From: a virus
Direction: 5' to 3' (one strand)
Virus record (IMG/VR): IMGVR_UViG_3300038465_000151
Coordinates: 1-22,889 of that record
Length of the DNA stretch: 22,889 nucleotides
Shown here: one piece after another, positions 6,889-19,553 of the stretch
How the letters are laid out: the number at the start of each line of letters is the position of its first letter
How positions within the stretch are numbered: the stretch's first letter is position 1
Notes under the pieces: generated by a model
Seen by the model: the letters and a program-made list of their open reading frames with translations, nothing else
What the model was told of the DNA's origin: nothing
Database searches by the model: none
Position numbers and translations under genes: made by a program

Positions 6889-9800
6889 TTATTGATAGGT
6901 CGGTTCAATGATGTATTCATTGATCGACACCGGGATGGTGGGGAAGGCATCGACGGTCGTCGCTAGAAATGAGGCACTGAATAGGACGCCCGGCGGGCTG
7001 AATGATCCACTGGGTACCGCTGACGTGACGGCTCCCTGCAGGTAGGTGCCGGACGAATCTGATATCGATATGATCATCTGCGAGCCCACATCGCTGGCCA
7101 GCAGCGTATAGGCAGAGCTGAAGGTGCCGGAGAAGACTCCGGGGGTTGACGTAGCCGATACGGCAATGCTGGCGACCTTCGTCGCCACGCTGTTCCACAG
7201 CGAACAGTCGACCGTCTCGGCGGGCCCCGACCAGTAGAACCTGATGCCCTTGATAACGCCCAGCTGCGAGGGGATGAAGGCGCGGCCCGTCGTGCCCGTC
7301 CCGGCGCTGCTCGCAGATGAGAGGTCCAGGTTGCAGGGAGAGAACTGCAGCACGTTGCCGCTGCCGCCGCCGCTCGATGCGATCGTTATATTCGTGCCTG
7401 ATGGCGTCACGGTGATGTTTGATCCGGCGACGATCGTCAGACCGCCGGTCAGGCTATTAAGCGATGAGACCCCGCCGCCGCCGCCGGTCTGCCAGGTCGG
7501 CAGCGCGCTGGCCCCATTGGACGTCAGCACCTGGCCGCTGGTGCCCAGCCCGCTGATCGACTGCACCGCTCCGGTGCTGGTCGTCCCGCCGGCCAGCAGG
7601 CTGTAGGCCGTCAGGCTCGTCTGCCCGCTGCCGCCATTGGCGACCGGCAGGGCCGAGCCGCTGAGGCTGACCGCCAGCGTGCCGCTGGTCGTGATCGGTG
7701 AGCCGCTGACGCTCAGGAAGGCCGGGACGGTGGCCGCAACGCTCGTCACCGTTCCGGTACCGCTCACGGTCTGCCAGGTCGGCAGCGCCGAGGCGCCATT
7801 GGACGTCAGAATCTGGCCGGTCGTGCCCGTGCCGGCATTCTGCCATGCTCCCGTACCGGTCGTGCCGGCAACAATCGTCCCGTAGGCCGTCGAGGTCGTC
7901 AGGCCCGTGCCGCCATTGGCGACCGGGAGGGCGGTCCCGCTCAGACTGATGGCCAGCGTGCCGCTGGTCGTAATCGGCGAGCCGGCGACCGACAGGAAGC
8001 TGGGCACCGATGCGGCCACGCTGGTGACCGTGCCGCTACCGCTCGGGGCAGCCTGCCAGCTGGGCAGCGCGCCGGATCCGTTTGACGTGAGGATCTGGCC
8101 GCTCGTACCCAGGCCGCTGACCTGCTGAAAGGCGCCCGTGCTGGTCGTCCCGCCTGCCATCAGGGCATAGGGCGTATCGGTCACAATCCCCGTCCCACCG
8201 CTGCTGACCGGCAGCGCCGATCCGCTGAGCGTCAGGGCCAGCGTGCCGCTGGTTGTGATCGGCGAACCGGCGACGCTGAGAAATGATGGCACGGTCTGGC
8301 TGACGCTCGTCACCGTGCCGGAGCCGCTGCCGCTTGCCGCAATGGTGATGGCGCCGGCCGCATTCGTCACCGTTATGCCACTGCCGGCCGTCAGCGTAGC
8401 CAGACTGTAGCCGCTTCCGTTGCCGATCGGCAGAGACCCATTGGCCGCGCTGCTCCCATTCAGCCCCGTTCCACCGTACTGCGCCGACAGGGTGCCGCTG
8501 GTGATCTGGCTGGCCGGCAGGCCGGGCACATCGGCCGCAAGCAAGGCGCGGAAGGTGGGCGTCGTGGCGCTGCCGCTCGACGGGCCGGCGAAGACACTGT
8601 TGGCCACCTGATTGCCCGGGCTGCTCGCTACCGTGACGGTCCCACTGCCATTCGTGACGCTGATACCGCTGCCGGCCGTCAGCGTCGTGGCCACCAGGCT
8701 GCCGCTGGACGTCTGGCCGACGAGCAGCTGGCCGTCCGTATAGGATGACTGTCCGGTGCCGCCGCGCGCCACGGCCAGCGTCCCGCTGGTGACCTGGCTG
8801 GCCGGAATGGCGATGGTCGTCTGCGTCGCGCTGGTGGCCCGCCCCTTCGCGTCATAGGTGACGGTCGGTACCGCGATCGCGCTCCCATAGGTGCCCGAGC
8901 TGACGCCCGATGCGCCGAGGGTCGCGGTCGTGCCGCTGGTCGTCAGGTCACCGGTCAGCGCCGGCAGCTCAAGCAGCCAGGCCGATCCGTTGTCGTACCA
9001 GATCTTTCCCGTATCGCTGGCGAAGTAGATCCGCCCGACGATCGAGGCGCTGGGTCTGGAGCCGTCCAGTCCGGTCAGCATAACCGGCGCCCCGCCGCCA
9101 TTCTGGACAGCATCCGTGATGCCGAATCCGCCCAGGGTCGTCGGATTCGTGCCGGCTGTCACAATTCCCTGCGCGTTGACTGTCGCACTTTTATACGTGC
9201 CGGCCGTGACTCCGCTGGTCGGCAGATCTGAATTGAGCAGACTTGCAACGCTGACCGTCCCGCCGCTGCTCGTCTGCTTCAGCAGCTGGCCGGTGCCGCC
9301 CGTGCCGCTCAGATTCGCGCCCGTCCCACCGTTGGCCAGCGGGACGATACCGGAAAGCGTTGTGGCGCTGGCAGTTATTGCGACATTACCGGCAGCTGTC
9401 AGCCGCCCCTTCGCGTCGACGGTCAGCTGGGCAACCTGCGTGGCCGAGCCGAACGTACCGGCTCCGACCCCGCTGGCCGCAAGCGTGGCGGTCGTGCCGC
9501 TGGTCGTCAGATCGCCAGATAGCGATGGCAACAGCAGCGACCAGGCCGAGCCGCTATCCAGATAGAGCGCGCCCGTGTCGGTGCTGACGTAGATCCGGCC
9601 AGCGATCGACGCACTGGGCCGCGCGCTGAATAGTCCGCTGAGCAGCCCTGGGGCGTTGCCGTAGTTGTGCATCCCATCCGTGATCCCATAGCCGCTGAGC
9701 GTCGATGGTGTGGCGCCGGCCGTCACCCGCCCCTTCGCGTCGGTCGTTACCTGCGTATAGGTGCCGGCCGTGCCGACGCTCGCCAGCGTGCCGGCACCGC

Positions 9801-10638
9801 TGCTGGCCAGCGTCAGATCGCCGCTGACCGGCACGCTGGCCCACTGCGTACCGTTGGCCACCATCAGGTGACCGGTCGTCGGCGTCGTGCTGGCCAGCGG
9901 AGCTCCGGACCAGCCGGCGACCACCGGACCCGGATAGGTACCGGACAGATCACCTGATGCCGATCCGTTGGGCGCCCTGGAATTGCTTAGCCGCGCATCA
10001 TTTCCGGCGACCGGCGTGTCCGCACCGGTTCCATAGGTGACGAATTCCCATGCGCCCGAGCCGTTGAGCTTCGGAAAGCTGTTGGCGACGATTCCCGGGA
10101 GCGAAAGGCCGAGGATGCCTCCTACGGTGGGATTCGGATATGAGCCCGCCAGATCGCCTCCGGCGGCTCCCGAGGGCGTACGGGCATCGGTGAACCGGGA
10201 GTCGTTGCCAGCGGCCGGCTGGTCGGCTCCGGTTCCGTAGCTGACGAATTCCCATGCGCCCGAGCCGTTGAGCTTGAGGAAAGCGCCGGTCACGACACCG
10301 GGAAGGGCAAGACCCTTCAGACCCTGCACGGTCGGATTCGGATAGGTGCTGCCCAGGTCTCCGCCGGCCGCGCCGCTCGGCGCGCTGCTGGTCGTCAGGG
10401 CGACCCAGGCGGAGCCGTTGCAGCGGTAGAGCGTCTGCGTGTCGGTCGCCCAGTAGACCTGCCCGCTGATCGGCGTCCCGGCGGCCGGGATGGCCGAATA
10501 GGCGCCGGAAGTCAGCGGGCAGTAGATCGTCTGTCCGGCCTGGACGGGCATCCAGCCTCCGGTGCCGTTCGGCACCAGTGGATGGGCGTCGGCGCCGATC
10601 AGCGCGGCGCTGATGAGTGTCAGTATTAATATACGCAT
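6889..10638 (-). CDS. Giant repetitive tail fibre 2 with signal peptide and DUF4082-like C-terminus, 1249 aa
   Basis: This is a Gly/Ser/Thr-rich phage fibre, presumably an adhesin. ATG 10638 is chosen over GTG 10650: GAGGA lies five bases upstream and the protein then opens with a signal peptide (MRILILTLISAALIGADA). Order of parts: shared N-terminal domain (about 20-85, with YWATDT and GSAWV); two and a half repeats of 68 residues around GDLxGxYPNPTV (87-250); two long repeats of about 188 residues (from about 292); three repeats of about 94 residues beginning GTVTSV (774, 869, 962); and a unique C-terminal domain (about 1110-1249; GIRFYWSGP, LWNS) resembling DUF4082 beta-sandwiches. The repeat vocabulary is typical of phage fibres. 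A Sec leader on a fibre is unusual. No chaperone-like autocleavage domain is recognised. Confidence 0.85.
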   Translation of the reverse strand: MRILILTLISAALIGADAHPLVPNGTGGWMPVQAGQTIYCPLTSGAYSAIPAAGTPISGQVYWATDTQTLYRCNGSAWVALTTSSAPSGAAGGDLGSTYPNPTVQGLKGLALPGVVTGAFLKLNGSGAWEFVSYGTGADQPAAGNDSRFTDARTPSGAAGGDLAGSYPNPTVGGILGLSLPGIVANSFPKLNGSGAWEFVTYGTGADTPVAGNDARLSNSRAPNGSASGDLSGTYPGPVVAGWSGAPLASTTPTTGHLMVANGTQWASVPVSGDLTLASSGAGTLASVGTAGTYTQVTTDAKGRVTAGATPSTLSGYGITDGMHNYGNAPGLLSGLFSARPSASIAGRIYVSTDTGALYLDSGSAWSLLLPSLSGDLTTSGTTATLAASGVGAGTFGSATQVAQLTVDAKGRLTAAGNVAITASATTLSGIVPLANGGTGANLSGTGGTGQLLKQTSSGGTVSVASLLNSDLPTSGVTAGTYKSATVNAQGIVTAGTNPTTLGGFGITDAVQNGGGAPVMLTGLDGSRPSASIVGRIYFASDTGKIWYDNGSAWLLELPALTGDLTTSGTTATLGASGVSSGTYGSAIAVPTVTYDAKGRATSATQTTIAIPASQVTSGTLAVARGGTGQSSYTDGQLLVGQTSSGSLVATTLTAGSGISVTNGSGTVTVASSPGNQVANSVFAGPSSGSATTPTFRALLAADVPGLPASQITSGTLSAQYGGTGLNGSSAANGSLPIGNGSGYSLATLTAGSGITVTNAAGAITIAASGSGSGTVTSVSQTVPSFLSVAGSPITTSGTLALTLSGSALPVSSGGTGIVTDTPYALMAGGTTSTGAFQQVSGLGTSGQILTSNGSGALPSWQAAPSGSGTVTSVAASVPSFLSVAGSPITTSGTLAISLSGTALPVANGGTGLTTSTAYGTIVAGTTGTGAWQNAGTGTTGQILTSNGASALPTWQTVSGTGTVTSVAATVPAFLSVSGSPITTSGTLAVSLSGSALPVANGGSGQTSLTAYSLLAGGTTSTGAVQSISGLGTSGQVLTSNGASALPTWQTGGGGGVSSLNSLTGGLTIVAGSNITVTPSGTNITIASSGGGSGNVLQFSPCNLDLSSASSAGTGTTGRAFIPSQLGVIKGIRFYWSGPAETVDCSLWNSVATKVASIAVSATSTPGVFSGTFSSAYTLLASDVGSQMIISISDSSGTYLQGAVTSAVPSGSFSPPGVLFSASFLATTVDAFPTIPVSINEYIIEPTYQ
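6892..7308 (-). other. DUF4082-like C-terminal domain of fibre 2
   Basis: This segment codes for the last 139 residues of fibre 2, where the Gly/Ser/Thr repeats stop and a unique sequence begins. The pattern of GIRFYW, a following LWNS, and a later strand ending in YTLLASDVG resembles DUF4082 proteins, small beta-sandwich domains found attached to carbohydrate-active or surface proteins. Being at the fibre tip, it is the likely receptor-contact region. The family match is by eye and moderate. Confidence 0.5.
7471..8319 (-). repeat. Three tandem ~94-residue (about 280 bp) repeats in fibre 2
   Basis: Units begin at GTVTSV (fibre residues 774, 869 and 962). Each runs through SPITTSGTLA, a LPVxxGGxG turn, an AGGTTSTGA-type loop and LTSNGxxALPxWQ. 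The spacings are 95 and 93 residues. The copies are close at the DNA level, so unequal recombination could change their number. Confidence 0.9.
9886..10380 (-). repeat. 68-residue (204 bp) repeats in the N-terminal part of fibre 2
   Basis: Two full copies (fibre residues 87-154 and 155-222) and one partial copy share GAAGGDL, YPNPTV, LxLPGxV, KLNGSGAWEFV and YGTGADxPxAGND. The first two are nearly identical in protein. The third begins PNGSASGDLSGTYPGP and breaks off into a different sequence. Confidence 0.9.
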
Positions 10639-10646
10639 GCCATTCC

Positions 10647-11147
10647 TCACATGGGTCCGTTCGGGTAGCCGAATTCTAGAATCGCTTCAGTGGTCGAGAT
10701 AGCGACGCCCAGCCGGGTCGCGTATTTGCCCGATCCGGCGGCCGGCGGGGCGTTGGAAATCCCCCCAGCGGTGCCGAGCCATAGCGGACCGACTGTCAGT
10801 CCGACGAAGCCACGGCAATAGCCGTTGAACTGCACGGTACCCAGCTGGCCGACTGCGATTCCGGCCAGACAGACCGCTACGGCCTGGGCGAGCCCGAGGG
10901 TCGAATCGTCGGCCACTACCAGCTGGCCCGGCACACCGTTGGACGCCAGGATGGCGAAGGCTGGGAAGTTGACGATATCGGAATTCTTCATGGCCCGAAT
11001 GCCGATGCCGGCCAGGTCAGAGAGTAGGACCTTGGACGATACCCCGTTGTCATCTATGACATACAGGACCTCCGTCCCGGTGAAGGGCGGCACGATCTGC
11101 GGCAGCAGACTGACGGGAGAATCCTGGCCGATCAGCGGTGCGGTCAT
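10647..11147 (-). CDS. Fibre-associated protein, paralogue 2, 166 aa
   Basis: This is a probable virion protein working with fibre 2, the next gene. The N-terminus (LLPQIVPPFTGTEVLYVID, then SSKVLLSDL) has the layout common at the head of phage fibre proteins. Residues 105-166 (GFVGLTVGPLWLGTAG, later LGVAISTTEAI) match the end of the 14314-14799 product closely, so the two are paralogues. No signal peptide is present. ATG 11147 overlaps the fibre 1 stop by one base (TAATG), with GGGAG upstream. The stop TGA lies eight bases before the fibre 2 ATG, the same distance as in the other cassette. A capsid decoration role is a less likely option, suggested by the compact beta-type C-terminal domain. 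Confidence 0.7.
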   Translation of the reverse strand: MTAPLIGQDSPVSLLPQIVPPFTGTEVLYVIDDNGVSSKVLLSDLAGIGIRAMKNSDIVNFPAFAILASNGVPGQLVVADDSTLGLAQAVAVCLAGIAVGQLGTVQFNGYCRGFVGLTVGPLWLGTAGGISNAPPAAGSGKYATRLGVAISTTEAILEFGYPNGPM

Positions 11148-14100
11148 TATTTGCTCCCAAAGGTCCAGTAGATGGTCAGGGGGGCGACGCCCTGATTGGT
11201 CAGGGCCGTAGTCGTGGATGTAAGGCGGGTCAGTCCGAAGTCAGCCGTTGAGCCAAAGCTGCCCACCGTGGCCTTCTGGTATCCGGCCGCTGGCGTGATG
11301 GCAAGCGCCACGCTGCTGAGCGTTGGGGTCACGGTACTGGATGACGACTCCAGTCCGTAGGCGAAATCCAGCGACGTTCCGGCGCCGGGCAGGCTGCTGA
11401 TCGGCAGGCTGGTCAGCTGTGTCTGCAGCGTCGACATCGCATTGCCATAGGTGGTCAGATTGGCGCTGCTGAGCGTATGGGACACCCATGCGCTGCCCGA
11501 CCAGGCATACCATGTCGTGCCGGCGTCGGTCGAAATCATTCCGACCAGGGTCTGCGAATTCGCCGCGCTGGTGATCGTCGCCGAGAGGGTTGCGCCCGCA
11601 TAGGCGGTCAGACTAGGAAAGGCGCTGGCGCTGGTGGAATTGTTGATCGTGGTTGCGTAGTAGAGCGTTCCGGTCGGATAGCTGGTGCCACTGGCTATTG
11701 TCACGGTCAAGAGGTTTAACGCGATGCCGCTTCCGCTGACGACTCCAGAGACATTCAGCCTGTAATAGCGATACGAGGCGGCTCCGCTGATGGTGTAATT
11801 CGTGCCGGTCGTAGTCGAACTGGCATTTAGCGCAGATCCCTGCCCGGATCTGCTGTCGAGCGTCGTCCAGGTTGAGTCGTCATTAGATCCTTGGAAGGAC
11901 CAGTTGTTGGGGGTGCTGTTTGTCTGCTGATAGGCGCCGACATTATATGATGTAGCTATGCCCGCGTACCCAGTTCCGACATCCAATGACAGCCAGTAAT
12001 TCGTTGAGGTGCTGCCCTCCCATTGGCCTGCCGCATAGTTGTTCTGGTTAATGAAGGCATGCCATGGGGCGACACCATTACTAGATGGCGTGGCCGCCAT
12101 GTCGGCTGCTACGTATGGCGATGGGGCGGTATTGGAGGTCAGCGGAACCTTCGGAAATGTGCCGCCGCTTGTGCCTGTGCCATAAAGACTCAGCACCCCG
12201 CTGGCGATCTGCGTCCCGCTGCTGGAATTCTGCTGTGTCCAGGTGCTGCCTGGTGTCAGGGTGTAGTTGTGAACGCTCGGGCTACTGATGTATTTGGCAA
12301 CGGTGGTGAACCACTGTTCGCTGGTGACTGCCGAATGCGTCAGCAGCACCGTATCGCCCGGGGTTCCGAGGGAATTCAGCGTCACCGGCGTGCCGGTGGG
12401 CTGGGCAAAATTCAGACCAGTTCCGCTGCTTCCTGCGGCCCAGATGGGCAGCGCGGCAGCGCCCTGACTGGTCAGGACCTGACCGCTGGTACCCAGGCCG
12501 CTGACCTGTTGGAGCGCGCCCGTTGAGGTCGTGCCGCCGGTCAGCACCCCATAGGCGGTCAGCGTAGCGACGCCCGTTCCGCCATTGGCCACCGGCAGCG
12601 TACCGGATACGTCGGTGCTGAGCGCAACGGCCCCGTAGGACGGCGAGCCGCTGGCGTTGCCATGCAGGACCGTGGTCGTCGTGCCGGCGCTGCCCTGCAC
12701 GACCGCCGTCCCGTTGCTGACCATGATCGTATTGCCGCTCAGGGCCGTGGTCGAATTCGTTCCGCCGTTGGCGATCGGCAGAGCCGTGCCGGATAGGCTG
12801 ATGGCAAGCGTGCCGCTGCTGGTCACCGGCGAGCCGCTGACACTGAGGAAGGCCGGCACGCTGGCCGCGACGCTGGTCACATAGCTGAGCGCCGGGATGT
12901 CGGCGGCGACCAGCGCGCGGAATGCACTCGCAGCCGCGCTGCCGGTCGACGGACCGGCCAGCACGGTATTTGCCGTCTGGGCCGTAGCGGTCAGCGCCAG
13001 CGTGCCGGATGTCGTCACCGGGGAGCCGCCGACCGTCAGCCAGCTGGGCGCCGATGCCGCGACGGAGGTCACGGAGCCGTTGCCCGTCCCGGCGCCGATA
13101 TTCGTGCGGGCCGTGCTCGCGCTGGTGACGTCGCTAAGATTATTCGACGCAACCAGATAGGTGGCCGGCAGGTCGGCGGCGACGAGGGTCCGGAAGGTGG
13201 GCGCAGCCGCGCTGCCGGTCGTCGGGCTGGCCCAGACCTGATTGGCCGTCTGGGTCGCCAGCGTGCCGGTCAGCGTGCCGCTACTGGTCACCGGGCTGCC
13301 GCTGACACTGAAGATCGCCGGCAGGGCCAGACCGACGCTCGTCACCCCGCTGGCCGCCGCATTCTGCCAGCTGGGCAGCGCCGAGGCGCCATTACTCATC
13401 AGCACCTGGCCGGAGGTTCCGAGTCCGGCGAGCGATTGGAGGGCCCCGGTCGATGTCGTTCCACCGGCCAGCAGCGCATAGGCGGTCGCCGAGGTCTCCC
13501 CCGTGCCACCATTCGCCACCGGCAGCGCGGTTCCGCTGAGACTGATCGCCAGCGTGCCGGATCCGGTCACCGGACTGCCGGCGATGCTCAGAAACGAGGG
13601 CACGGAGGCGCCGACGCTCGTCACCGTACCGTTGCCCGTGCCGGCTCCGAGGTTCGACCGAGCCGTTGCCGCGTTGGCCACGTCGCTGAGGTTGTTGGCG
13701 ACCTGCAGGAAGGTGCCGGTGGCCTGCGTGGCTGCCGTCCCGAGTCCCAGATTAGTCCGCGCCGCCGACGCGCTGGCCAGGTCGCTCAGGTTGTTGGCCT
13801 TCTGCGCGCTGCTTGCCAGCACGGCCGCCGCCGCCCCGGTGGCGTCATAGGGCAGCGCCGGGATGTCGCTAGAGGTCAGGGCGCGGAAAGTCGGCTGCGC
13901 CGCCCCGCCGCTGATCGGGCCAGCCCAGACGGCACCGGGGCTTTGGGTCGTCAGCGCGGCCGACAGCGTGCCGCTACTGGTCACCGGGCTGCCGGTCACG
14001 GAGAAGATGCCGGGCAGCGCCAGACCGACGCTCGAGACAGTGCCCGACCCTCCGCTGGCGACCGGGACCCAGGCCGATCCGGTGCTCCGGTAGATCAGAT

Positions 14101-14305
14101 TAGTATCCGTCGCCCAGTAGAGCATGGCGACGTTGCTCGCCGCCGGACTGGGCAGCGCGGAAAACAGCCCGCTGGTCAACGGTACGTTGAGCGTGTCGCC
14201 CTGGCTGATCTGCTGCGGTTGCCCCTGCGGGCCCAGGACCAGCGGATATTGATCGGCACCGATCAGCGCCAAGCCGAGGCACATCAGGACTGCGATTCTG
14301 ATCAT
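11147..14305 (-). CDS. Giant repetitive tail fibre 1 with signal peptide and discoidin (F5/8 type C) domain, 1052 aa
   Basis: The ATG at 14305, behind GAGG, gives a protein opening with a clean signal peptide (MIRIAVLMCLGLALIGADQ); GTG 14317 would add four residues. The N-terminal domain (about 20-86) matches fibre 2 (PLTSGxxSAxP, YWATDT, GSAWV). Residues 86-628 are fibre repeats: TVTSV/SPVTSSGTL units alternating with NNLSDVxxAxTARxNLG and LPVANGGTG units. Residues about 721-871 form a discoidin-like domain: STNYWLSLDVG, NWSFQGSNDDSTWTTLDSRS and SYRYYRLNVSG are the standard F5/8C signature, a fold that binds sugars or glycans. A further beta region follows to the end. This makes it a strong receptor-binding candidate. 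The Sec leader is unexpected for a cytoplasmically assembled phage fibre. Confidence 0.87.
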   Translation of the reverse strand: MIRIAVLMCLGLALIGADQYPLVLGPQGQPQQISQGDTLNVPLTSGLFSALPSPAASNVAMLYWATDTNLIYRSTGSAWVPVASGGSGTVSSVGLALPGIFSVTGSPVTSSGTLSAALTTQSPGAVWAGPISGGAAQPTFRALTSSDIPALPYDATGAAAAVLASSAQKANNLSDLASASAARTNLGLGTAATQATGTFLQVANNLSDVANAATARSNLGAGTGNGTVTSVGASVPSFLSIAGSPVTGSGTLAISLSGTALPVANGGTGETSATAYALLAGGTTSTGALQSLAGLGTSGQVLMSNGASALPSWQNAAASGVTSVGLALPAIFSVSGSPVTSSGTLTGTLATQTANQVWASPTTGSAAAPTFRTLVAADLPATYLVASNNLSDVTSASTARTNIGAGTGNGSVTSVAASAPSWLTVGGSPVTTSGTLALTATAQTANTVLAGPSTGSAAASAFRALVAADIPALSYVTSVAASVPAFLSVSGSPVTSSGTLAISLSGTALPIANGGTNSTTALSGNTIMVSNGTAVVQGSAGTTTTVLHGNASGSPSYGAVALSTDVSGTLPVANGGTGVATLTAYGVLTGGTTSTGALQQVSGLGTSGQVLTSQGAAALPIWAAGSSGTGLNFAQPTGTPVTLNSLGTPGDTVLLTHSAVTSEQWFTTVAKYISSPSVHNYTLTPGSTWTQQNSSSGTQIASGVLSLYGTGTSGGTFPKVPLTSNTAPSPYVAADMAATPSSNGVAPWHAFINQNNYAAGQWEGSTSTNYWLSLDVGTGYAGIATSYNVGAYQQTNSTPNNWSFQGSNDDSTWTTLDSRSGQGSALNASSTTTGTNYTISGAASYRYYRLNVSGVVSGSGIALNLLTVTIASGTSYPTGTLYYATTINNSTSASAFPSLTAYAGATLSATITSAANSQTLVGMISTDAGTTWYAWSGSAWVSHTLSSANLTTYGNAMSTLQTQLTSLPISSLPGAGTSLDFAYGLESSSSTVTPTLSSVALAITPAAGYQKATVGSFGSTADFGLTRLTSTTTALTNQGVAPLTIYWTFGSK
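11693..12145 (-). other. Discoidin / F5/8 type C domain in fibre 1
   Basis: This segment encodes fibre 1 residues about 721-871. The conserved features are the YWLSLDVG strand, the GSNDDSTWTTLDSRSGQ turn-strand, and the closing YRYYRLNVSG strand, in the right order and spacing. Domains of this family usually bind galactose-type or other surface glycans, so it probably defines the target of fibre 1. Confidence 0.8.
12422..14050 (-). repeat. Degenerate internal repeats of fibre 1
   Basis: These are five TVTSV-like units (near fibre residues 88, 226, 320, 410 and 475), three NNLSDV-type units (near 173, 205 and 388) and LPVANGGTG/LGTSGQVL units (near 262 and 570). They share their vocabulary with the fibre 2 repeats, but the order is shuffled and the copies are more diverged. 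Confidence 0.85.
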
Positions 14306-14313
14306 GGGTCGCC

Positions 14314-14799
14314 TCACCGGTAGAGCGATGGAAAGCCGGGCTGAAAGATGATTTCCGTGGCGCTGATGGCTCGACCCAGCGGGACGTTGTACTGGCCGGC
14401 CACGTTGGGCGGATTGGCCGAGCAGATGATCGTGCCCGCGGCACCGAGCCAGATCGGGCCTGCGGTCAGTCCGACGAAGCCGCTCACGTATCCGACCGTA
14501 GCGATTCCGGCCGTCTGATCTACGGCCTGCATGGTCAGCGCGATGCCCTGCGCGAACGCTTCCGCCCAGGTGCCGTCAGGGATGCAGACCAGCGCCGCTC
14601 CGGCCGCCTGCAGGCTGACCACCATACCGGGCGTGAAGGCCTCGGCGTCGACATTTTCCACCTGGATCTGACCCAGGCTGGCCAGCAGCTCGCCCACCGT
14701 GATGGCGAAGCTGGCCGTCCCGGTATCGATCTCCAGCAGCGCGCCGCTGGGCAGCCCGCTGACCAGTTGATTCATGTCCGAAATTTTCTCGTAGATCAT
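14314..14799 (-). CDS. Fibre-associated protein, paralogue 1, 161 aa
   Basis: ATG 14799 (MIYEKISDM) is chosen because it overlaps the upstream stop as ATGA and follows a run of five Gs; a reading from 14865 would lie mostly inside the upstream gene. The N-terminus (ISDMNQLVSGLPSGALLEID, then FAITVGELL) resembles the opening of phage fibre proteins. Residues about 103-161 (GYVSGFVGLTAGPIWLG, later PLGRAISATEIIFQPG) match the end of the 10647-11147 product. It is probably a virion component paired with fibre 1, whose ATG lies eight bases beyond its stop. The protein has no signal peptide although its partner does. Exact role unknown. Confidence 0.7.
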   Translation of the reverse strand: MIYEKISDMNQLVSGLPSGALLEIDTGTASFAITVGELLASLGQIQVENVDAEAFTPGMVVSLQAAGAALVCIPDGTWAEAFAQGIALTMQAVDQTAGIATVGYVSGFVGLTAGPIWLGAAGTIICSANPPNVAGQYNVPLGRAISATEIIFQPGFPSLYR

Positions 14800-15965: not shown

Positions 15966-17162
15966 TTACTTGCCGATCCAGACCTTGGACAGCTCGGGGC
16001 GGGTCACCGTGCCGCCGTAGACATACTGCAGTTCGAACTGGTTCTTGAGGTAGCCCTCATAGTAGGCCAGCCGCATTGCCAGTCCGGTCTTCGGGTCCAT
16101 GAAGATCGCCGATTCCTTGGCCATATCGCCACCGGGCGGCATGGCGGTCGGCCGAACGGCGAGCTTCATCGCCTGGCTATGGAAGCAGGGCAGGCGCCGA
16201 CCGGCGGCCACAACCGTGACGGCTGCGTTGATGGCATTGATCTGGGCCACATAGCCCACATTCGTGCCCGGCCGGTTGCCGACGCTGAGGGTCAGGACGC
16301 CCGGAGCGGCGAAGCCGCCGGGGGTGAGGCCCGCAACGTAGTTGGTCGCATCGCCAGCGATCTGCACGATATCGCCCGGCAGGATGGTTCCGGTGCCGGT
16401 CTTGAGGGTCAGCGTCGCATCGCCGACCGCAGTCGCGACGCTGAGCAGATAGTTCTCCGCGGTGCCGACTGTCACGGGGGCGAGCAGCTGATCGAAGTTG
16501 ACGCCAATGCCCTGCAGCATGCCGATCATGCCCTGGCGGAGCATCTCGTCGTTGCCCGATTTCTGGACTTCAATCAGCAGCGGATTCTGGCTCAGCTGGC
16601 CATAGGCCGTGGTGCTCAGGATGCCGAACCGATCGGACAGCGGGGCCAGCGAATCATTGAGGTATTGCACCATCTGCTCCCAGTTGGGCAGCAGGCCCTG
16701 GATGGCAGTCGGCGCGGCGAACGGATCGGACCCGGCCGTACCGATGGCCGACGTAGCGCCAGCGGCCAGCAGGGCGTAGCCGAATACCGCGATTTCATTT
16801 CGCGCCACCCGCATCGCCTCCTTGAGCGAATTCGGCACGAAGCCGGGCGTCGGGGTCGGCGACTCGAGGGCCATGTAATCGTCACCGCTCAGGAAGAACT
16901 TCACGGCCCGCTGCTTCGTGAATGTGACGTTGACATTAGTCAGCGTCTCGGTCTGGCCTTCGATCGGGATGACGCCCGGCACGATGTCGACCGCAGTCAG
17001 GATGGGCGTGATCGGGGTCAGGATATTCTGACCCAGCGCGGCCGGAACGGTGCTGAATTCCGTGTCGGCAAGGCCATTCAAGACAGCCGCGTTTTCCTCA
17101 AGGATGGGCATAAAGCCCTCATTGATCGCGCGAGTGATCGCGTTGACGTTATTGATGGCCAT
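15966..17162 (-). CDS. Major capsid protein, P22 coat-like, 398 aa
   Basis: This is the main shell protein (HK97 fold, P22 coat branch). ATG 17162 lies behind AGGAG. Features in order: an N-terminal helix (ITRAINEGFMPILEENAAVL); the N-arm/E-loop region with VPGVIPIEGQTETLTNVNVTF (about 61-82); a helix with LKEAMRVARNEIAVFGYALL (113-132); an inserted beta domain at about 234-315 (GDATLTLKTGTGTILPGDIV), the counterpart of the P22 I-domain; and the closing FHSQAMKLAVRPTAMPPGG and TGLAMRLAYYEGYL (328-373), typical of P22-like coats. Length and position after the scaffold gene agree. No decoration or protease domain is fused. The combination with siphovirus-type tail genes is a mosaic. Confidence 0.92.
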   Translation of the reverse strand: MAINNVNAITRAINEGFMPILEENAAVLNGLADTEFSTVPAALGQNILTPITPILTAVDIVPGVIPIEGQTETLTNVNVTFTKQRAVKFFLSGDDYMALESPTPTPGFVPNSLKEAMRVARNEIAVFGYALLAAGATSAIGTAGSDPFAAPTAIQGLLPNWEQMVQYLNDSLAPLSDRFGILSTTAYGQLSQNPLLIEVQKSGNDEMLRQGMIGMLQGIGVNFDQLLAPVTVGTAENYLLSVATAVGDATLTLKTGTGTILPGDIVQIAGDATNYVAGLTPGGFAAPGVLTLSVGNRPGTNVGYVAQINAINAAVTVVAAGRRLPCFHSQAMKLAVRPTAMPPGGDMAKESAIFMDPKTGLAMRLAYYEGYLKNQFELQYVYGGTVTRPELSKVWIGK

Positions 17163-17225
17163 CTGATGAGCTCCTGGGCACGGTTATGTGCCAAAGGACG
17201 GGCGGGGCCCGCGTGGAAGAGAAGG

Positions 17226-17927
17226 TCAGTCGGTGATCTGCAGGGTCTTGTTCTTTGCGGCCTTGGCGTACTCCGACCTTCCCCATGTGCCCAGTTCCAT
17301 CATCCGCTGCTGCTGCGCATGGGTGATTGTATGGGTGAAGTCCTTTTCGCCATGTCGCAGGGCAACGTCACCGTCGCCCGCTGGGGCCTTGGACTTCTGC
17401 AGATGGGATCGGGTCTTGGCGAAGTCCGCTAGGACCGCATCCGCGGTCAAGGGTCTTCCCGTCTTGGGGTCGTTCAGCAGCTGTCCAGCCGCATCGACAA
17501 CCTCAATCTCGTCCGTATCGGCGTTGAGCCGGAACTTCCGAGCGTTGAGCGCGATCGTGTCCTCCAATGTGTCGTTGTCAACCTTCGGGTATAGCTGCGT
17601 GATCTTGGCGCGCAGATGCTCGGCTATGACGCGGGCTTCGCGGCGCTTCAGCTTGGCCACGCTTTCTTCGTTGGCGATCTCCCTCACCTTCTTGATGTCG
17701 CCTTCCTTGTTGGCCTTCTCGATCGCTACCAGCCGATCCGCTTCGGCCTTCGCCTCTTCGGCCGCCTTTTTCTCGCGCCGCGCCGCGCCGGCCTCGGTGG
17801 CCAGCGCCTCGCGCTCCTGCTTGTCTTTTGCGCGGTTGGTCCGGTAGTCCTCCAGCTTTTCCTTCGGGACCAGGATCTTGACCGCGCCGGGGCCTTCGAT
17901 CTCTTCGTAACCTTCCGGGATTGGCAT
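17226..17927 (-). CDS. Capsid scaffold protein, 233 aa
   Basis: This protein guides assembly of the coat into a procapsid and then leaves it. ATG 17927 (MPIPEGYEEIEGPG) is chosen for the strong AGGAGA seven bases upstream; an in-frame ATG at 17948 sits inside a hairpin loop and is less likely. Residues 25-95 are a Lys/Glu/Ala-rich coiled coil (REALATEAGAARREKKAAEE region). The middle is helical (HLRAKITQLYP), and the basic C-terminus would bind coat (WGRSEYAKAAKNKTLQI). No protease motif is seen. Placement between portal and coat is as in P22-like phages. The coding stretch for LTADAV repeats, base for base, the hairpin that precedes the gene. P22 scaffold is known to autoregulate its own synthesis, which makes this noteworthy. 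Confidence 0.83.
   Translation of the reverse strand: MPIPEGYEEIEGPGAVKILVPKEKLEDYRTNRAKDKQEREALATEAGAARREKKAAEEAKAEADRLVAIEKANKEGDIKKVREIANEESVAKLKRREARVIAEHLRAKITQLYPKVDNDTLEDTIALNARKFRLNADTDEIEVVDAAGQLLNDPKTGRPLTADAVLADFAKTRSHLQKSKAPAGDGDVALRHGEKDFTHTITHAQQQRMMELGTWGRSEYAKAAKNKTLQITD
17433..17450 (-). repeat. Second copy of the 18-bp palindromic element, inside the scaffold gene
   Basis: The plus-strand sequence gaccgcatccgcggtcaa here is identical to 17941-17958. It encodes LTADAV in the scaffold protein and folds as GACCGC-GGAT-GCGGTC on the message. An exact 18-base repeat 508 bases away is unlikely by chance. Confidence 0.9.
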
Positions 17928-17940
17928 CGTCGTTTCTCCT

Positions 17941-17976
17941 GACCGCATCCGCGGTCAAATCGCGCGGCATCCGCCG
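17941..17976 (-). promoter_or_regulatory. Tandem GGAU-loop hairpins abutting the scaffold ribosome binding site
   Basis: In the 51-base portal-scaffold gap the message has two consecutive hairpins with the same GGAU loop: CGGC-GGAU-GCCG (17976-17965) and GACCGC-GGAU-GCGGUC (17956-17941). The second ends exactly where AGGAGA begins. An 18-base copy of the second element (with two flanking bases) is found within the scaffold gene. A translational operator is the natural reading, but this is inference. Confidence 0.6.
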
Positions 17977-17978
17977 TG

Positions 17979-19553
17979 CTATTTTTTCGTCTTGTCGCCC
18001 GGAGTGGGCGGCTCTTTGGGTTTTGGCGGCAGCGCCCCGCCGATCCGCTCCTGCGACGGAAAGGCGGACAGGCCACCTTCGACCATATCCTTCCGCGCCT
18101 CCATCTGATCGTCGAGCTCCTGCTGCCGATCGGGCGCCAGGCTGAGATTCCGATGGACGAAGCGGGCCACTAGCTCTTCGCGCAGCACGCTGGGCAGACC
18201 CTGGGTGGCCAGCGCCTGGATCAGGCCTGCCAGCTCTTCCGCATAGTTCGGGATATCGAATTCGTCAGGATAATGGGTCGGCTTGGGTATCTTGAATCCC
18301 CAGCCGCCCTCCATCAGAATCCAGATCTTGTTTTCTGCCCGGCCGCATGCATCCGCCAAGCTCTTCAGCTGCGCGGCCAGATTCTGGAACTTGAACGCCA
18401 GCGCGACACCGGACTGCACATCGCCCTTCTGCTTGGTCGCGTCCTCGGCTTCCAGACCGGCGGCCAGGTAGACGTTCATCTTGATTTCAGTCAGCTGCAG
18501 CCGCAGCTGCTCGGCCGCTTCCGGTACCGCACTGGTGGCGTTGAATTTGGCCGCCGGATTGGTGAACCACATGACGCGGTTCGATCCGATCTTGACCTCA
18601 TCGTTGTCGCTGCCGCCCGTACCGGTCTTGCTCGGCGGCCTGGCGCCGCTGACCCAGTATTGGGTAAAGACGCAATTCCACAGCTCTTCGCGCAGCCACG
18701 ACTGGACGTTGAGGTAGTCCTGCTGCTGCTCGGCGACCGGCGCGGCCTGCGACTGCGGCGGCAGATCGGCGCACAGATCATCCGGCATGGGGATCAGCGG
18801 AACGAGCGGAAGCCCCGGGTAGCCGTGCTTCATGACCGGACCGGCCGATGTGACCGTATAGGACGACTTTCCGCGCTCCCGATCGGCGATCGGTGCGCGT
18901 TTGACCTTGAAATCCTGGCGGGTCGTCTCGGTGATGTACCGAGCCGTTGGCTTGCCGTCGATCTCGAGCAGCAGCAGGGCCTCGATCATCTGACCGCCGC
19001 GGATCGTCCAGTTGACCACCTGATCGGAGCCGACGATCAGCAGCCTGGGCCGCGCGCCCGCGCTCTGCGCCTCCGCCTTCGTGCTGATCTGCATCCCATC
19101 GGGAATGGGGTTTACGGGCATGCAGTAGCAGACCTGTTCGACCTGCCCCTTCTGGAGCCATTGGCGCATGAAATCGTCAAGCGACAGCCCATAGCCGTCC
19201 GCATTGTCGATCAGATCCAGATACTCCGGCGGACCCTCTTTGTCCCGCTCCGGTTTCTTGCGGAAGACGAAATCGTTAAACATGCGGGTGATCGGGCCGG
19301 TAAAGTTCGGGCACTTGGCCGATTTCTTGCGCACCGCATAGGTGTCCGGATCTTCGCGCGGATGCTGCCATAGCAGCGACTCGCCCCGTCCGTCCTGCTG
19401 CAACGGGTATTCGTCGCCTCCGTTGTAACTGACCCGCCAAAATGCGCGCTTCATCTGCCAGCCGGCATAATTCGCGTTCAGTGGTAGCAGCTTGTCGACA
19501 ACCGGGCGGACCCGCGCCTCTGTGACCTGATCGCCGACCGGTACGATTGCCAT
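17979..19553 (-). CDS. Portal protein (DUF4055-like), 524 aa
   Basis: The dodecameric portal forms the DNA channel and the docking site for terminase and head-tail proteins. Recognisable parts: an N-terminal helical region with the wing-like YAVRKKSAKCPNFTGPITRM (72-91); VNPIPDGM; the segment ARPRLLIVGSDQVVNW (167-182), which matches the 'RPYxxxYxxEDIINW' stretch of DUF4055 portals; GYPGLPLVPLIPMP (244-257); a helix QQDYLNVQSWLREELWNC (277-294); and the long stem/crown helix SGVALAFKFQNLAAQLKSLA (381-400). The last 50 residues are Pro/Lys-rich. Length is normal. ATG 19553 has only a weak Shine-Dalgarno, 40 bases after the terminase stop. The usual MuF gene does not follow it. Confidence 0.88.
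   Translation of the reverse strand: MAIVPVGDQVTEARVRPVVDKLLPLNANYAGWQMKRAFWRVSYNGGDEYPLQQDGRGESLLWQHPREDPDTYAVRKKSAKCPNFTGPITRMFNDFVFRKKPERDKEGPPEYLDLIDNADGYGLSLDDFMRQWLQKGQVEQVCYCMPVNPIPDGMQISTKAEAQSAGARPRLLIVGSDQVVNWTIRGGQMIEALLLLEIDGKPTARYITETTRQDFKVKRAPIADRERGKSSYTVTSAGPVMKHGYPGLPLVPLIPMPDDLCADLPPQSQAAPVAEQQQDYLNVQSWLREELWNCVFTQYWVSGARPPSKTGTGGSDNDEVKIGSNRVMWFTNPAAKFNATSAVPEAAEQLRLQLTEIKMNVYLAAGLEAEDATKQKGDVQSGVALAFKFQNLAAQLKSLADACGRAENKIWILMEGGWGFKIPKPTHYPDEFDIPNYAEELAGLIQALATQGLPSVLREELVARFVHRNLSLAPDRQQELDDQMEARKDMVEGGLSAFPSQERIGGALPPKPKEPPTPGDKTKK

Follow-up and report, generated by a model that had tools for sequence, protein, structure and literature searches.

A conserved, covarying tandem GGAU hairpin element in phage scaffold gene leaders as a candidate translational operator

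Coat proteins of MS2-type RNA phages shut down translation by binding a small, fixed-loop hairpin located at a ribosome site. CsrA/RsmA recognizes GGA in hairpin loops near Shine-Dalgarno (SD) sequences, often in paired sites, with an unpaired A-N before the GGA in its hexaloop consensus. The scaffold protein of phage P22, gp8, reportedly reduces its own synthesis at a post-transcriptional step, and we know of no RNA target for this feedback. The candidate RNA motifs GP20-a and GP20-b are located upstream of phage genes of the GP20 (scaffold) type.

Like the MS2-type operators, the element analyzed in this study would place a structural protein on a fixed-loop hairpin at a ribosome site, whereas here two or three hairpins stand in tandem, the loop is a GGAU tetraloop, the phage is a DNA tailed phage and the proposed ligand is the scaffold. 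The hairpins differ from CsrA/RsmA sites in having a tetraloop closed directly by a C-G pair and in being confined to phage loci. The position before scaffold genes is shared with GP20-a and GP20-b. As in P22, the scaffold gene lies between the portal gene and a P22-like coat gene; however, the leader of P22 gene 8 contains neither tandem GGAU hairpins nor a match to the covariance model R1 described below, and the scaffold of the phage considered here was not matched to P22 gp8. Since the element is absent from it, the gene 8 leader was rejected as a direct homolog, and P22 serves as an analogy only.

The window, that is, the whole 22.9-kb stretch of DNA under analysis, is a virus record with its capsid genes on the minus strand. 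The small and large terminase genes come first, followed by the portal gene, an ORF of 233 aa where a scaffold is expected, and the gene for a P22-like coat. The portal gene (PHROG_145) occupies positions 17979-19553, the scaffold gene 17226-17927 and the major coat gene (PHROG_283, P22 coat-like) 15966-17162. At E <= 0.001 the scaffold matches neither Pfam nor PHROG, and it was assigned by its position between the portal gene and the coat gene. It starts with ATG at 17927-17925 (minus strand), preceded by the SD sequence AGGAGA at 17935-17940, recognized from the sequence. On the same strand, two giant ORFs at 6889-10650 (1253 aa) and 11147-14317 (1056 aa) contain DNA stretches that are common to both and internally repeated at 69-82% identity, a pattern resembling that of repeat-built tail proteins.

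The 50-nt gap between the portal stop and the scaffold start is filled by two GGAU-tetraloop hairpins on the minus strand. The distal one, H1 (17962-17979; GCaCGGC-GGAU-GCCGcGC), has one A.C mismatch, and its first base doubles as the final base of the stop codon of the portal gene. It corresponds to the second, weaker hairpin with a GGAU loop that the initial annotation had placed upstream. The proximal one, H2 (17940-17957; UGACCGC-GGAU-GCGGUCA), has a perfect stem of 7 bp and overlaps the SD by one A, its final base being the first base of AGGAGA. The H1 loop lies 22 nt upstream of the H2 loop. Both hairpins are predicted by folding and both are covered by the R1 match, which spans the whole tandem leader element (17925-17980, minus strand; 22.6 bits, E = 2.2e-6).

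The repeat noticed at the outset, an exact 18-base element lying against the scaffold AGGAGA and again in the scaffold coding region, was recovered as described: exact matches to the 18-mer GACCGCATCCGCGGTCAA stand at positions 17433-17450 and 17941-17958, the two copies being 508 bp apart. One hundred shuffles gave on average 0.04 matches and none reached two, and no third copy within three mismatches exists elsewhere in the window. The intragenic copy of the H2 hairpin (17433-17448, minus strand) encodes LTADAV, a stretch in rough alignment with a conserved section of the scaffolds of relatives; the hairpin copy itself has no counterpart in the relatives. Possible readings of this copy are a second operator, an accidental duplication and a decoy. 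In computed folding H1, H2 and the intragenic copy each fold as drawn. The 76-nt scaffold leader as a whole folds only slightly better than its shuffles (z = -1.13), and the minus strand of the window contains 17 perfect tetraloop hairpins with stems of at least 6 bp, so that a comparison of relatives was needed to decide. Within the window, the exact repeat, the common loop and the tandem position at the SD are above chance; what is decisive is conservation in relatives. No GGAU hairpin is present in the leader of the window coat gene, where the SD (CAGGAG, 17176-17171, minus strand) adjoins a 5-bp hairpin with a different loop (GGCAC-ATAACC-GTGCC, 17177-17192).

Searches of viral contigs with the scaffold, coat and portal yielded a sibling record as the only close relative of the window, and at 99.94% identity it is useless for covariation; tblastn of the window scaffold against phages gave no match. 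Loci were therefore collected from viral contigs and bacterial genomes with an alignment of P22-like coats (25-31% identical to the window coat) and a second alignment seeded with a relative, and annotated phage and plasmid records were added, giving 246 loci in total. A usable scaffold leader was available for 224 of them (14 have no scaffold ORF, in five the leader is cut and three are short), and 169 leaders were left once redundancy was removed. Two loci were left out by hand (L087, of 1.6 kb, and L012, with no adjacent scaffold); L003 and L015 represent the same contig as L004, the twin of the window phage among the loci. The caller of start codons preferred starts followed by an MKLK- or MPFK-like N-terminus, so the leader positions depend slightly on the type of N-terminus.

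When all 256 tetraloops closed by at least four Watson-Crick pairs were counted in the 90-nt leaders, GGAU was found in 57 of the 169, a figure that is not a population rate because part of the locus searches used motif-positive phages as the query alignment. The expectation from the rest of the same loci is 0.62, and the next most frequent tetraloops reach five leaders. With looser pairing and 150-nt leaders, 64 of the 169 contain a hairpin with a GGA loop and 43 contain at least two. The usual layout is two or three hairpins 19-24 nt apart with the last one at the SD. Loop-to-loop spacing is 18-27 nt in 50 of 51 neighboring pairs, most commonly 24, and the last loop lies 18-25 nt upstream of the start codon in 44 of the 64 leaders. 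Prophages in which the element occurs include those of alpha-, beta- and gammaproteobacteria and of planctomycetes, among others. Among 115 hairpins the loop is GGAU in 102, GGAA in nine and GGAC in four, and the tetraloop is closed directly by C-G in 109. As GGAG occurs in none of them, the loop does not mimic an SD, and SD mimicry is not favored.

This hairpin set was preselected for pairing, and every CGGATG in the leaders was then tested irrespective of pairing. At least three further flanking pairs are formed at 104 of 132 sites, compared with 19 for shuffled partners (maximum 32 in 1000 shuffles). Outside the scaffold leaders of the same loci 62 of 426 sites are paired, and many of these 62 precede the coat gene. 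Some of the 28 unpaired leader sites belong to a further element on the distal side, the third in the leader, which lies at about -61 to -77 relative to the start of the scaffold gene (L042, L007, L226, L239, L248, L181 and others). It has a short stem, mismatches rich in A.G and A.A, and two or three outer pairs; by eye it closes again past a purine-rich internal loop, as if it were a conserved, internally looped hairpin.

In a structural alignment of 32 tandem leaders, 99.6% of the cells are paired, and 44 cells with changes on both sides of the pair were counted, compared with 13 after shuffling and at most five after sliding. The two hairpins of the alignment differ in their stems and have the loop in common. 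The check for covariation in relatives, proposed when the hairpin was first noted, thus came out in favor of conserved stem pairing, both in these leaders and in the new loci discussed below. Of the features of an MS2-like operator, a conserved hairpin at the ribosome site, a fixed loop and a covarying stem were observed. By comparison of these sequences, the leader of the window is one case of a conserved, covarying RNA element, and a functional hairpin at the scaffold ribosome site is favored.

The palindromic stem and the exact copy 508 bp away could also be taken as signs of a DNA element, such as a dispersed palindrome, a recombination or packaging site, or a DNA operator, with the duplication of the 18-mer as its mark. 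We consider this very improbable. The leaders contain 132 CGGATG and only seven CATCCG, the reverse orientation; an RNA is likewise indicated by the covarying stem with its fixed loop and by the constant spacing from the SD; and an exact scan of viral contigs finds the 18-mer solely in this phage, that is, in the near-identical sibling record, the duplication being absent from relatives. A DNA palindrome or dispersed repeat was rejected on strand bias and covariation.

The covariance model R1 was built on the 32 tandem leaders with the window phage excluded. It recovers the window leader as given above, with the next match at E = 0.054. In 24 of 25 genomes or records, with coordinates compared with the locus ranges by hand, its best match is at the scaffold leader; the match in one of the genomes or records, W02, is weak (E = 0.014). 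In class-wide genome searches the center genome alone was matched (1/289 and 1/369), which demonstrates that R1 is specific and gained no new members. Nothing at E <= 1e-6 was found in 656 further alpha- and gammaproteobacterial genomes, so the element is not a host-wide regulon.

The latter results bear on binding by host CsrA/RsmA, an explanation suggested by GGA loops in paired hairpins at the SD, which resemble the CsrA arrangement. The CsrA family (PF02599) is absent from 12 of 20 genomes with prophages that carry these loci, including nine of nine alphaproteobacteria and L245, labeled a complete chromosome; the element is confined to the prophage, as the 656 other genomes indicate; and GG is preceded by a paired C, where the CsrA consensus has an unpaired A-N. 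A CsrA regulon was rejected as a general explanation on host gene content, and CsrA sites in these leaders appear highly unlikely.

Motif-bearing leaders precede scaffolds of one class, starting with MKLKLDxxGxxVVQDGKPVYVxDDGKE (PHROG_784/206). The scaffolds of the relatives match the PHROG_206 head scaffolding protein, and in the scaffolds of this class Pfam DUF6651 lies C-terminal of the N-terminal domain. When stop-to-stop ORFs were scored with a profile of this domain, 75 of the 169 loci had it. The motif occurs in 61 of these 75 and in one of the 94 without the domain, the exception being the window phage in the form of its twin. All 12 seeds of the profile are motif-positive; with the seeds removed, the counts are 49/63 and 1/94. 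R1 at E <= 0.01 matches 60 of the 75 leaders of domain-bearing scaffolds, three of them (L206, L223 and L240) added by hand as matches running beyond the called start (57 in the automatic count); of the 43 among these 75 leaders that lie outside the model, 28 are matched. Among the 94 domain-less loci it matches the window twin only, plus one match elsewhere in L026. On a tree of coat proteins, domain and motif form 12 independent pairs, of which about nine agree and about none oppose (median p = 0.004).

The same association was obtained from a gene-blind scan, in which viral contigs were searched for a pattern of two tandem cores with no gene as reference. At least 120 stretches were found, and 80 of the listed loci were examined. 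Among the matches listed, 67 of these 80 lie directly upstream of an ORF with the scaffold N-terminal domain, three (L267, L280 and L316) are leaders of coat genes just behind a domain-bearing scaffold, six end within 135 nt of sequence, and four (L272, L308, L323 and L327) pair poorly and look like chance matches. Judged by identical N-termini, only eight of the 67 among the matches listed overlap with the earlier set. The third pair of the proximal stem had been left free in the scan pattern, except that G or C was required; in 33 new non-redundant loci among the matches listed it is formed in every case (25 G-C and 8 C-G, compared with at most 27 in shuffles), and the stem of the distal hairpin is paired in 27 of the 33 (shuffle mean 8.0, maximum 17).

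In one phage such hairpins also precede another gene. Locus L253 (G023:C1:24600-25700) has three tandem CGGATG hairpins with GGCC, GCCC and CCGC stems on the minus strand at about 666-598, directly before an ORF that contains HELYH and probably encodes a metallopeptidase. The site belongs to the L048 phage, whose scaffold follows 5 kb downstream. The putative metallopeptidase gene is a possible extra member of the regulon, and the targets are not strictly capsid genes.

The leader adjoins the start of the scaffold gene, and co-inheritance of domain and motif could therefore be mere linkage. The element would then be an operator for another phage protein, such as the coat, the portal or an unannotated RNA-binding protein, and the leader and the gene start would recombine as a block. 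In line with this are the contiguity of the leader with the scaffold 5' end, the occurrence before a non-capsid gene in G023, and the window scaffold, which has no recognizable domain. The coat gene, which is separated from the scaffold leader by the whole scaffold gene, has the element in its own leader, at a position further upstream, in 20 of 61 loci with the domain and in none of 47 without it. These copies argue against mere linkage, although the association is not significant once corrected for the tree, a point on the side of another binding protein. In L267, a domain-bearing scaffold is combined with an unrelated coat (PHROG_247, not 283), and the element is retained at both leaders (38.2 and 24.3 bits). 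The coat protein is thus an unlikely ligand and the scaffold is the best candidate. On balance, an operator for some other protein seems to us unlikely, though less so than the CsrA and DNA explanations.

The scaffold of the window has the motif in its leader and no match to the N-terminal domain profile, and a profile comparison with the domain-bearing class gave no support (probability 0.1%). AlphaFold models place a small N-terminal beta element in the L184 scaffold (pLDDT 85); the corresponding part of the window scaffold is modeled as a beta-hairpin (pLDDT 74). In both models the helices then follow in one common order, and a C-terminal strand-helix-helix-strand unit is shared, the window at lower confidence. 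As modeled, the window scaffold has the architecture of the PHROG_206/784 head scaffolds without a recognizable domain sequence. The domain consensus is slightly acidic, with no obvious surface for RNA binding. The model had no significant match in a fold search against the PDB (best E = 0.85), and a sequence search against solved structures gave nothing beyond a match at E = 0.035 to an unrelated protein.

The element covaries, is specific to one strand, is laid out in tandem and is associated with one class of scaffold. We infer that a protein binds it, that the scaffold is the binder and that repression is the effect. Autoregulation by the scaffold is the leading mechanism in view of the association with the N-terminal domain. 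The ligand would be an RNA-binding protein of the phage, most likely the scaffold via its N-terminal domain. It would grip both loops, probably in dimeric or oligomeric form, and binding beside the SD would block ribosome entry. While procapsids consume scaffold, the operator would be free and the scaffold translated; with free scaffold in excess, the scaffold would switch off its own gene and, in some relatives, also the coat gene. We judge it somewhat better than an even chance that the tandem pair of C-GGAU-G hairpins is a translational operator of this kind, with the scaffold N-terminal domain as the most likely ligand and repression as its effect. The suggestion in the initial annotation of an autoregulatory operator at the scaffold ribosome site is upheld as to the conserved hairpin and gains from the domain association; what operates is the pair or triplet of hairpins in tandem, and not the exact repeat.

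The ratio of scaffold to coat in tailed phages is an old question of control, and a recurrent covarying leader operator, if confirmed, would make it directly testable by means of short RNAs and a single protein. A scaffold doubling as an mRNA-binding regulator would likewise provide a compact model of RNA-protein co-evolution. The tandem GGAU switch looks undescribed. It is absent from Rfam: at gathering score, no Rfam 15 family was found in the window or in 17 relatives, and at relaxed E-values there was no match to the leader in seven relatives and chance-level matches, below gathering score, in the leader region of the window. The open-access literature searched contains no description of a tandem GGAU element in scaffold leaders.

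Other loops show a similar pattern. The leaders of 93 domain-less scaffolds contain 91 perfect small hairpins, compared with 19.4 (s.d. 4.1) after shuffling, whereas an intragenic control stretch of the same set has 17 against 19.9 shuffled. Loops within one leader tend to match: 24 of 66 pairs agree within one mismatch, compared with 5.4 in shuffles (0 of 2000 as high, kinship being ignored). Matched loops in domain-less leaders include UGA/UGA, AGU/UGU/AGU, GAG/GAG, GAGAU/GGGAG and more, and by eye some domain-bearing scaffolds without GGAU (L147, L235, L006 and L129) have AGYAA or GUGAW loops. Such matching within a leader, with loops that differ between lineages, points to sequence-specific recognition, and the sequences suggest that the loop recognized is specific to the lineage.

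These counts also bear on a ligand-free role of the hairpins as a structural or ribosome-facing RNA, for instance, a standby site, an mRNA stabilizer or an RNase processing site. Small stable hairpins adjoining the SD would suit such a role, and several proximal hairpins of domain-less relatives contain the SD itself. Stability alone, however, does not explain the conservation of the loop, nor the matching of loops within a leader although they differ between lineages, and we regard a ligand-free RNA as improbable.

Returning to recognition by the scaffold, we tentatively propose, as a possibility somewhat short of an even chance, that the head scaffolds of this large group of tailed phages recognize, in their own mRNA, a loop code specific to the lineage, with one N-terminal type per loop type, and that this feedback sets the scaffold-to-coat ratio across widely differing hosts. 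GGAU might then go with the MKLKLD...DGKPVYVHDDGKE type, and UGA, AGU/UGU, GAG, GRGAK, AGYAA and GUGAW with types found elsewhere, an assignment that we hold just as tentatively. Under such a code, a swap of the scaffold head by recombination would swap the operator too. Lineage-specific loop recognition, if true, would be a source of new orthogonal operator-protein pairs. Finally, the scaffold leader of L026, which belongs to a scaffold class without the N-terminal domain, contains a perfect palindrome of 32 bp with a 14-bp stem at -54 to -23.
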